Assembly: GCA_020627965.1 (NCBI GenBank)
Contig: JAHDFX010000001.1
Span: forward strand, 61,895-106,780
DNA: 44,886 bases
Direction: 5' to 3'
Source: Saprospiraceae bacterium
GTDB taxonomy: Bacteria > Bacteroidota > Bacteroidia > Chitinophagales > Saprospiraceae
The notes beneath the pieces were generated by a model. The model ran no database searches and was not told where the DNA came from. It saw only the letters and a list, made by a program, of their open reading frames with translations. This document shows, piece by piece, positions 32,768 through 34,927 of the stretch. The position numbers and the translations under genes are program-made. Every line of letters starts with the position of its first letter. The stretch's first letter is position 1.

Positions 32768-33079
32768 ATGAGAAAGGCAAAGGTTAAAATTAATGAGGAC
32801 AATCTGCAGATTTCGGCAGAGATTCTTCGTGCATTAGCACATCCGCTACGCATGAACATCCTCGAATTTATTGACAAGCACAAAACTATTAACGTAAATA
32901 AGATTTACAATACGTTGAAATTAGAACAATCTATCACTTCTCAACATTTGAGAATTTTACGTACTGCTGGTGTTGTAGATACCCGTAGAGATGGAAAGTT
33001 CATTTATTACACAATCAATTATCCAAGAGTTGCCCAGGTTGTTAAGGGTATTGATAATTTCTTGGAAGATGAGCAATAA
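32768..33079 (+). CDS. ArsR-type winged-helix regulator 2 (paralogue)
   Basis: The 103-residue protein is a paralogue of the gene upstream: MRKAK.. opening, LAHPLRMNILEFIDKHKTINVNKIYNTLKLEQSITSQHLRILRTAGVVDTRRDGKFIYYTIN. It has the ArsR fold without any Cys and with no known metal site. The two proteins share the LEQS.(A/T)SQHL.ILR.AGVV recognition helix, so they may bind related DNA and could form heterodimers. It has its own promoter-like element and terminator and is thus a separate transcription unit. Confidence 0.87.
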   Translation: MRKAKVKINEDNLQISAEILRALAHPLRMNILEFIDKHKTINVNKIYNTLKLEQSITSQHLRILRTAGVVDTRRDGKFIYYTINYPRVAQVVKGIDNFLEDEQ

Positions 33080-33102
33080 GTTATTGCTCAATATACGTTA
33101 AT

Positions 33103-33137
33103 AAAATGGCTTAGTTAATTCAAACTAAGCCATTTTT
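33103..33137 (+). terminator. Intrinsic terminator after the second ArsR-type gene
   Basis: AAAATGGCTTAGTT pairs with AACTAAGCCATTTT around a 7-base loop and ends in Ts. It isolates the cysS leader from upstream transcription. Confidence 0.9.
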
Positions 33138-33245
33138 GATAACGTAGACTTAAAAGACATGAACTATTCACCGAGAATGTTTGTACTTTTAAGAAATTCC
33201 TGAAAAGAGAAATCGCATTTCAAAAAAAATATTAATCAAATAAAG

Positions 33246-33320
33246 ATGTTATTTATCTGTACATGTTGTTGCTGTTGTTGCCCTATCAGGGAAGGAAAAG
33301 CAATTCATGTCACTGCTTAA
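33246..33320 (+). CDS. Cysteine-rich leader peptide of cysS (24 aa)
   Basis: A short frame starting at ATG 33246 reads MLFICTCCCCCCPIREG and continues to TAA at 33318-33320, 24 residues in all. Seven of the first twelve residues are cysteine, with six in a row encoded TGT TGT TGC TGT TGT TGC at 33264-33281. The start has an A-rich upstream context (AATCAAATAAAG ATG) typical of Bacteroidota initiation. It lies 116 bp upstream of the cysS start codon, between two terminators, and a perfect intrinsic terminator follows 22 bp after its stop. By position and composition it looks like a sensor of charged tRNA-Cys, as in trp- or his-type attenuation. A chance frame is possible but the Cys run in front of a Cys-tRNA synthetase gene makes that unlikely. 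Confidence 0.75.
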   Translation: MLFICTCCCCCCPIREGKAIHVTA

Positions 33321-33358
33321 TTATAAGACATCTGATAATGATAAAAAAAGCCTTTCCT
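33293..33358 (+). promoter_or_regulatory. Candidate antiterminator pairing in the cysS leader
   Basis: AGGAAAAGC (33293-33301), just after the Cys codons inside the leader ORF, can pair with GCCTTTCCT (33350-33358) with 8 of 9 base pairs (one A-C mismatch). The second segment is the inner part of the left arm of the terminator at 33343-33380, so the two structures exclude each other. A ribosome stalled on the Cys codons would leave 33293-33301 free. The pairing is short and untested. Confidence 0.45.
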
Positions 33359-33380
33359 GAAATATGGAAAGGCTTTTTTT
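33343..33380 (+). terminator. Attenuator-type intrinsic terminator upstream of cysS
   Basis: AAAAAAAGCCTTTCC (33343-33357) pairs perfectly over 15 bp with GGAAAGGCTTTTTTT (33366-33380) around an 8-base loop (TGAAATAT). The T-tract is part of the right arm. It lies 23 bp after the stop of the Cys-rich leader ORF and 56 bp before the cysS start codon, so transcription of cysS from an upstream promoter must read through it. Confidence 0.9.
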
Positions 33381-33436
33381 GTACTAAGAGTTTTAAAGTA
33401 ATTTTATCGTTTCAATGCAAATCGTATTTTTGCCGT

Positions 33437-34927
33437 ATGAAAAACAAGGATCTATATATTTACAACAGTCTAAGTCGTAAAAAAGAAAAATTTGAACCGC
33501 TAAATCCGCCTTTTGTAGGCTTGTATGTCTGTGGTCCTACTGTATACAGCCCTCCTCATTTAGGTAATGTTCGTACTTTTTTAAGTTTTGATATCGTTAA
33601 TCGTTATCTACTTTACTTAGGATACAAAGTCCGTTATGTGCGTAATATTACTGATGTAGGGCATATTACCAATTCGGAAGGAGAAGACATTGATAGAATT
33701 GGTGAACAAGCCAAAAAAGAAAATCTGGAACCCATGGAAATTGTGCAGAAGTATACGCTGGACTTTCATGAAGTTACCCATATTTTTAACATGCTGCCAC
33801 CAGATATAGAACCTACCGCCACAGGACATGTTGTAGAGCAGATAGAAATGGTACAACGTATCATTGATAATGGATACGCCTATGTGAAAAACTACTCTGT
33901 TTATTTTGATATTCCAAAATTCGTTAAAGATCATTCTTATGGCGAACTCAGTGGACAAAACATAGAAGAGCAATTGGAGGGACATCGTGAACTCGATGCA
34001 CAGAATGAAAAACAAGATGCCCGTGATTTTGCTATCTGGAAATACGCCGATAAAACACACCCTATGAGATGGAATTCTCCCTGGGGCGAAGGCGTACCTG
34101 GCTGGCATTTGGAATGTTCGGTTATGAGTACCAAGTACCTCGGACAAAAATTCGATATTCATGGTGGTGGTATGGATCTAAAGTTCCCTCATCACGAATG
34201 TGAGATTGCCCAATCCATTGGTGCCGATGGCTCTGCTCCTGTACGTTACTGGATGCATGGTAATATGCTCACGATGAATGGACAAAAAATGAGTAAATCA
34301 CTCGGCAACTCAGTCCTTCCGCGTGAATTGATTACTGGGGATCATGATTTGTTGGAGCAAGGCTATAGCCCAATGAGTATTCGCTTTTTCATGTTGCAGG
34401 CACATTATACCAGTACACTTGACTTGAGTAATGAAGCCCTAAAGGCAGCCGAAAAAGGTTATAAACGCTTAATGGAAGCTTTGAAAACATTGGAAAATCT
34501 GGACCTAAGAGAAGCGAAATCCCTAAGTGATGCCGATCAAAAAGTCAATGATAGTATTGATATGGCTTTCGCCGAATTGAATGACGATTTTAATACACCA
34601 AAAGCATTGGCAAGACTATTCGAATTGGTGACCGTCATCAACAGCTACAAAGATAAGAGAGAGGAATATGCCGGAGTCAGCAAAGCAACAATGGAACGTT
34701 TGCAGAAAGACTTCCGTGATCTGGTGATAGATATATTGGGCTTACAGGAAGAAACAGCTGGAGAAGATGGTACTATGGATGGTTTAATGCAACTCATTAT
34801 TGATATTCGCCAAAATGCCCGTACCAATAAAGACTGGACAACTTCCGACCTCATTCGCGATAAGCTGAATGAACTGGAATTGCAACTAAAAGACGGTAAA
34901 GATGGTACTACATGGACGAAGTTGTAA
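33437..34927 (+). CDS. cysS: Cysteinyl-tRNA synthetase
   Basis: CysRS charges tRNA-Cys with cysteine. The start at ATG 33437 (MKNKDLYIYNSLSRKKE) gives 496 residues, the family's usual length; the frame is open further upstream to 33263, but that part overlaps the leader and terminator. Visible motifs are YVCGPTVYSPPHLGNVRTFLSFDI (first zinc Cys and the HIGH-type PHLGN), GWHLECSVMSTKYLG and FPHHECEIAQ (remaining zinc ligands C, H, E), and the KMSKS loop GQKMSKSLGN. A TATTTTTG -7-like sequence at 33425-33432 is too close to the ATG for a usual leader. Regulation is probably by the Cys-codon leader and terminator upstream. A strong terminator follows the gene. Confidence 0.95.
   Translation: MKNKDLYIYNSLSRKKEKFEPLNPPFVGLYVCGPTVYSPPHLGNVRTFLSFDIVNRYLLYLGYKVRYVRNITDVGHITNSEGEDIDRIGEQAKKENLEPMEIVQKYTLDFHEVTHIFNMLPPDIEPTATGHVVEQIEMVQRIIDNGYAYVKNYSVYFDIPKFVKDHSYGELSGQNIEEQLEGHRELDAQNEKQDARDFAIWKYADKTHPMRWNSPWGEGVPGWHLECSVMSTKYLGQKFDIHGGGMDLKFPHHECEIAQSIGADGSAPVRYWMHGNMLTMNGQKMSKSLGNSVLPRELITGDHDLLEQGYSPMSIRFFMLQAHYTSTLDLSNEALKAAEKGYKRLMEALKTLENLDLREAKSLSDADQKVNDSIDMAFAELNDDFNTPKALARLFELVTVINSYKDKREEYAGVSKATMERLQKDFRDLVIDILGLQEETAGEDGTMDGLMQLIIDIRQNARTNKDWTTSDLIRDKLNELELQLKDGKDGTTWTKL

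Follow-up and report, generated by a model that had tools for sequence, protein, structure and literature searches.

The cysteinyl-tRNA synthetase gene (cysS) of a Saprospiraceae bacterium is preceded by a short polycysteine leader that very probably attenuates transcription through the ribosome, as trp/his-type leaders do, and senses charged tRNA-Cys. The window, that is, the whole stretch of DNA analysed here, is 44,886 nucleotides long. The anatomy of the unit can be read directly in it. The unit is homologous to one in front of a cysM-like gene, its two antiterminator arms vary jointly over a family of related units, and that family is associated with sulfur genes. If the model is right, a recurrent leader ties sulfite reductase-like and cysM-like genes, and here also cysS, to the charging of tRNA-Cys and perhaps tRNA-Met, and a sulfur regulon of the Bacteroidota becomes readable from sequence.

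Anatomy of the leader unit

The leader ORF MLFICTCCCCCCPIREGKAIHVTA lies on the forward strand at 33246-33320 and consists of 24 codons, seven of which encode Cys. These control codons comprise one Cys codon at 33258-33260 and six consecutive ones at 33264-33281. The ORF is short, rich in Cys and matched to the amino acid charged by the product of the downstream gene. Between leader and gene stands an intrinsic terminator (33343-33380, forward strand), a perfect 15-bp stem with a T-tract as its 3' end. Its first strand, arm 3, combines an A-tract (33343-33349) with GCCTTTCC (33350-33357). The loop spans 33358-33365, and arm 4 combines GGAAAGGC (33366-33373) with seven T residues (33374-33380). 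The proposed regulated gene, cysS, follows on the same strand at 33437-34927 and scores 455 bits against TIGR00435, where the cut-off is 340.

Two further elements complete the unit. A protector (1:2) hairpin at 33261-33310 of the forward strand appears in the minimum-energy fold of 33246-33385, where the GCAAUUCAUGU stretch is paired with ACATG and the Cys codons and the hairpin closes over CCCU/AGGG. Arm 2, the 5' strand of the antiterminator, lies at 33288-33301 of the same strand by sequence reading and by duplex and truncated folds. Two registers are possible for it, AGGGAAGGA at 33288-33296 or AGGAAAAGC at 33293-33301; the latter pairs at 8 of 9 positions with 33350-33358. The fold contains both the 1:2 hairpin and the terminator, with a z score of -5.69 (none of 200 shuffles was equally good).

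Another hairpin with a T-tract (33103-33137, forward strand, by sequence reading) is found between an ArsR-type HTH gene (32768-33076, HTH_5 match) and the leader, and is the likely terminator of the upstream gene. A simple terminator scan listed neither this hairpin nor the one at 33343-33380, perhaps because their T-tracts are taken up into the stems. The main elements had been described in an earlier sequence-only reading of the window. The leader frame with its end at 33320, the 15-bp hairpin, the 8-of-9 pairing, the ATG of cysS at 33437 and the upstream hairpin were each found again in the sequence.

In the proposed mechanism, a ribosome supplied with ample Cys-tRNA would run through the Cys codons, and arm 2 would be unavailable, either covered or tied up in the 1:2 hairpin, so that the 3:4 terminator would form and end transcription near 33380. 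With scarce Cys-tRNA, the ribosome would stall in the Cys run and leave arm 2 free, which in the window begins 7-12 nt past that run. Free arm 2 would pair with arm 3 before arm 4 has been transcribed, and RNA polymerase would continue into cysS. The model thus involves translation of the leader, stalling and read-through, and the upstream transcript would matter for cysS beside the gene's own possible promoter.

Related units at sulfur genes

A second copy of the unit exists in the same genome. It came up when the leader region was used as a DNA query (locus L002), is 79% identical over window positions 33258-33380 and lies before a cysteine synthase-like (cysM-like) gene. Another unit lies directly upstream of this copy, so that the two stand in tandem. 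The pattern (TGY)5 matches 27 times in this genome, in about 15 separate places by manual count, and only three of these places combine a short ORF with a terminator; they lie upstream of cysS and of the cysM-like gene. By Pfam, the cysM-like operon runs in the order PALP enzyme, JAB, ThiS and ThiF-rhodanese. Locus L006 (1353-4321, reverse strand) holds an operon in which JAB, ThiS and ThiF-rhodanese genes accompany a PALP cysteine synthase-like gene. Mycobacteria offer a parallel, with their polycysteine leaders and a cysteine pathway built on CysM, CysO and Mec that the cysM-JAB-ThiS-ThiF operon resembles.

The ungapped pattern ACN(TGY)6 was searched in 198 genomes and in 298 family genomes, two sets that overlap, and matched in 19 and 34 of them, respectively. 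By manual count, the backward control pattern gave 1 match against 23 for the true pattern in the 198 genomes, and 5 against 41 in the family; six of the 41 family matches had no locus and were left out. Many (TGY)6 matches were rejected as leaders since they are coding sequence in another frame. Units were then defined by a Cys run of at least 4, an ATG, a length of at most 60 codons and a terminator of -8 kcal/mol or better. This rule accepted 31 of 34 candidate leaders (loci L001-L154), found at 18 loci in 17 genomes, with two units at 13 of the loci.

The gene 3' of these units is cysM-like at eight of the 18 loci and sulfite/nitrite reductase-like at six. The others are one each of cysH (459 nt away), a DUF4395 gene and cysS, with one locus at a contig edge. 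Seven of the downstream gene names come from NCBIfam, three from Pfam and seven from N-terminal similarity judged by eye. In NCBIfam, cysS scored above its curated cut-off, and the cysM-like and the cut-off reductase proteins scored below theirs, with cysM or cysKM as the best families for the former and NirA for the latter. Across the family, the Cys run is 3-8 codons long (six in the window), and leader sequences outside it differ widely among units. At the DUF4395 locus (L153, reverse strand, about 1271-1660), two polycysteine units were seen upstream of the gene, hinting that DUF4395 belongs to sulfur metabolism.

Since this first search was keyed on Cys runs, it was repeated by gene, with queries from unit-bearing loci. 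Of 41 family genomes, 7 have a cysM orthologue (E below 1e-100), the window's own among them, and clear polycysteine units are present at six of these seven loci, two per locus; an automatic scan of 500 nt found units at five of the seven. At L189 the second leader reads FCCAACC, at L191 the second hairpin is without a T4 tract, and at L187 an extra ORF separates the units from cysM. The weaker, cysK-type paralogues of cysM had a leader at none of 23 loci. The cysM orthologue at L190 has a hairpin upstream and lacks a clear Cys leader; the hairpin is preceded by a frame that contains Cys but has no ATG, and a doubtful polycysteine ORF lies about 1.1 kb from the gene. In the wider class sample, such a cysM is present in 9 of 198 genomes. 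Among seven new class loci, one has a leader and terminator directly upstream, and another has two polycysteine ORFs 0.9-1.0 kb upstream, where ORFs only were scanned. The remaining five have no unit within 600 nt; two of them (G387 and G399) lie about 2.2 kb after a leader-bearing reductase.

The sulfite/nitrite reductase-like gene was found in 31 of 119 class genomes, 30 of which gave loci (L215-L244). Here a rule set after seeing the reductase leaders was used, namely at least 2 Cys codons, at least 4 Cys and Met codons together, and a terminator of -11 or better. By this rule, 16 of the 30 loci carry a leader, in 12 families of the class and in some cases in tandem, and 14 carry none. The same rule accepted 1 of 80 cysS loci, 1 of 30 family cysS loci (the window itself) and none of the 23 cysK-type loci. 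Many reductase leaders mix Met with Cys, for instance MCMCMCMCCC and MMCCMMCCC. In the 40-unit set described below, 8 of 12 reductase units have Met close to their Cys run, versus 4 of 23 cysM units (Fisher p 0.007), a result that is only indicative because the units are related. Dual sensing of Met and Cys by reductase leaders is possible. As for cysH, a leader stands directly upstream at none of 27 loci. On several contigs a few kb separate cysH from the reductase, so the operon may carry a leader in front of its first gene.

Antiterminator pairing and tandem arrangement

The pairings were assessed over 40 units at 23 loci (17 with two units), made up of the 31 units from the pattern search and nine from L186-L191. 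Two of these units (at L186 and L188) have a Cys run of only 3, and the second unit of L189 was added by hand. Left out were L190 as doubtful, the second unit of L191 (no T4), the second unit of L043 (contig end) and a duplicate entry of L188.

In each unit the stretch from Cys run to terminator was paired with the 5' arm of the terminator and compared with 300 shuffles. Pairing of arm 2 with arm 3 beats the shuffles at p<0.05 in 24 of 40 units and at p<=0.01 in 11; the Stouffer score over the set is 13.3, with related units treated as independent. For the window unit alone the pairing is marginal (p 0.063). Arm 2 starts 11-19 nt past the Cys run in 35 of the 40 units.

Joint variation of the arms had been proposed as a check on the model, and for arms 2 and 3 it was found over the family. 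A unit's own arms pair at a mean of -11.8 kcal/mol, versus -8.8 kcal/mol when arms are swapped between units (z -8.9), and none of 5000 permutations was as good. A unit's own arm 2 is the best partner among all 40 in only four units, with a median rank of 9.5 and a rank of 13 for the window.

Folds of the transcript before arm 4 is made allow the antiterminator to be followed with the ribosome in different places. When the ribosome stands in the Cys run, all 40 units form 5 or more antiterminator pairs. With the ribosome at the stop codon 9 of 40 do so, a count that is lower in part because less sequence is folded, and with no ribosome 30 of 40 still do. The mean number of antiterminator pairs is 10.2 versus 6.8 in shuffles, and 39 of the 40 units lie above their own shuffle mean. 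At the level of the family, then, the antiterminator is predicted to exclude the terminator and to be free while a ribosome is stalled on the control codons. Support for the 1:2 hairpin across the units is weak (p<0.05 in 4 of 40; Stouffer 2.5, kinship ignored), which, like the antiterminator pairs formed with no ribosome, speaks against the full trp model. A local hairpin reaches a Stouffer score of 5.1 (kinship again ignored), with p 0.512 in the window.

Promoters in the Bacteroidota follow the consensus TTG-N17-22-TAnnTTTG, in which TAnnTTTG is the -7 box. Matches to it lie upstream of the first unit at 9 of 23 loci (a raw count), with box starts 22-24 nt apart. The strict promoter was found before the second unit at none of 17 loci and in the gap to the next ORF at none of 22. 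At 9 of the 17 tandem loci, too little sequence precedes the second unit to fit a promoter that does not overlap the first terminator. Promoter matches at first units alone fit two attenuators in series on one transcript, and the tandem units would then act serially. At 20 of 22 loci, 21-140 nt separate the end of the terminator from the next ORF.

A wider model, for which the chances stand about even, takes this arrangement as general. Sulfur assimilation in the Bacteroidota would be run by serial pairs of Cys (or Met and Cys) attenuators under one promoter. Each pair would make two independent stall-or-stop decisions, and the response to Cys-tRNA would be multiplicative and steep. The unit would be a modular cassette that was copied onto cysS in this lineage, and the Met codons of reductase leaders would make that gene responsive to each of the two products of sulfide. 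If the model holds, the serial action of two attenuators on the same transcript becomes a well-defined quantitative question.

The unit at cysS, rival explanations and known systems

At cysS itself the placement of the unit is not conserved. Runs of at least 4 consecutive Cys codons are absent upstream of all 80 other cysS loci. Seven of these have three in a row, and one of the seven (L110) passes the looser Cys/Met-plus-terminator rule. Among 30 cysS loci of the family, the unit is present at the window's own locus and at none of the 29 others, nor does the nearest cysS relative, 89% identical (L059 and L156), have one. The two cysS sets overlap, and L059 and L156 are apparently one contig.

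The sequence-only reading had called for a comparison of cysS upstream regions and had named missing conservation in relatives as a refutation, so by its own rule this absence counts against its claim. The cassette with its Cys run is conserved at other genes, and the attenuation that it claimed is upheld by the related units at sulfur genes; what did not stand is conservation of the placement at cysS. Because other cysS loci are without units, the unit at cysS most plausibly arose in this lineage by copying of the cassette, probably from the nearer of the two tandem cysM-JAB-ThiS-ThiF units. The direction of copying would thus be from the cysM unit to cysS.

A reading that gives the unit less weight is that cysS is transcribed from a -7-like box and that the copied attenuator barely acts on it. 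The sequence TATTTTTG (33425-33432, forward strand) matches TAnnTTTG, lies downstream of the terminator and starts 12 nt 5' of the cysS ATG, as it also does in the leaderless relatives L057, L058 and L059. This position suggests, from sequence, that transcription of cysS may begin at its start codon or close to it. The box is found at most 60 nt from the ATG in 25 of 79 cysS loci and never in a control stretch further upstream, and the strict promoter was not found upstream of the window's leader. Against this, the sequence at the -33 distance is TTT in place of TTG, and a bipartite promoter match occurs in only 2 of the 79 loci. The cysS and cysM copies, moreover, have diverged by about 21%, yet the reading frame, the six Cys codons and the 8-bp core arms of the terminator are intact. 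An attenuator without effect on cysS is accordingly rather unlikely. Given the place of TATTTTTG downstream of the terminator, transcription of cysS may still partly bypass the attenuator, and control by it is probably partial.

Two other explanations deny attenuation altogether. The peptide might be a functional Cys-rich binder of metals or thiols, the hairpin being merely the terminator of its transcript. A peptide with six to eight Cys in a row could bind metals, and small transcripts do end at terminators, but the wide divergence of leaders outside the Cys run, the variation of the post-run stretch together with the terminator arm, and the short distance from terminator to next ORF make a small protein very unlikely. 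The weakest explanation is chance, with the Cys run and the hairpin as unrelated features. Cys-run patterns do arise when coding sequence rich in Ala or Gln is read out of frame. A run of the form (TGY)6, however, has a single occurrence in the window, and 100 shuffles produced none; a family of 40 units that agree in anatomy and in gene context speaks so strongly against chance that its probability is next to negligible. Attenuation by the leader is thus the preferred reading.

The attenuators of the trp and his operons in Proteobacteria work by 1:2, 2:3 and 3:4 pairing with control codons in the leader. The unit described here follows the same pairing logic, and differs from them in amino acid, in phylum, in its serial tandem form and in the weakness of 1:2 over the family. 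Work by Canestrari et al. in 2020 is said, by its title, to concern cysteine-responsive attenuation by mycobacterial polycysteine leaders.

Cys-leader attenuation of cysS has already been proposed in Rhodobacterales, for the uORFC-8-2 motif (PMC8632094). Both that motif and the window unit, as far as the available text describes the former, have adjacent Cys codons in the first stem, a second stem with a U-run, and cysS downstream. By its description, uORFC-8-2 has two Cys codons, usually at positions 14-15, and is found in Alphaproteobacteria before cysS only (PMC8632094). The window unit, unlike it, has Cys at positions 5 and 7-12 and comes from Saprospiraceae, and its family mainly precedes cysM-like and reductase genes, often in tandem. 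Leader ORFs with Cys codons also stand before cys operons in Mycobacterium and other Actinobacteria, by the available text without conserved terminator hairpins (PMC1262725). Runs of Cys codons are shared with the Bacteroidota units, and strong intrinsic terminators with an antiterminator are, on that description, found in the latter only. A uORF before nirA has also been described in M. abscessus.

Tandem attenuators are known from mgtCBR of Salmonella, where, in the accessible text, two leader ORFs respond to ATP and proline (PMC3641672). Two leader ORFs are common to both systems; here both are Cys leaders, each with its own terminator. Within the Bacteroidota, a Flavobacterium psychrophilum study reports leader-peptide attenuation before amino-acid operons, cysteine not being named in the text available, and a B. 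thetaiotaomicron study, in its accessible part, reports leader-like sORFs.

At the Rfam gathering score, neither the window region 32900-33600 nor 14 related loci gave a match. A T-box or other Rfam leader was rejected, as a loose threshold gave sub-gathering hits only (best Thr_leader, 30.7 bits, cut-off 55). A tandem, terminator-based polycysteine attenuator of the Bacteroidota was not found in Rfam or recognised in the open-access literature searched.

A minor feature of the locus concerns annotation. The reading frame of cysS extends upstream without a stop codon as far as an ATG at 33263 (window 33263-33436), with the Cys run read as Leu, so a gene caller could misplace the start of cysS across the terminator.
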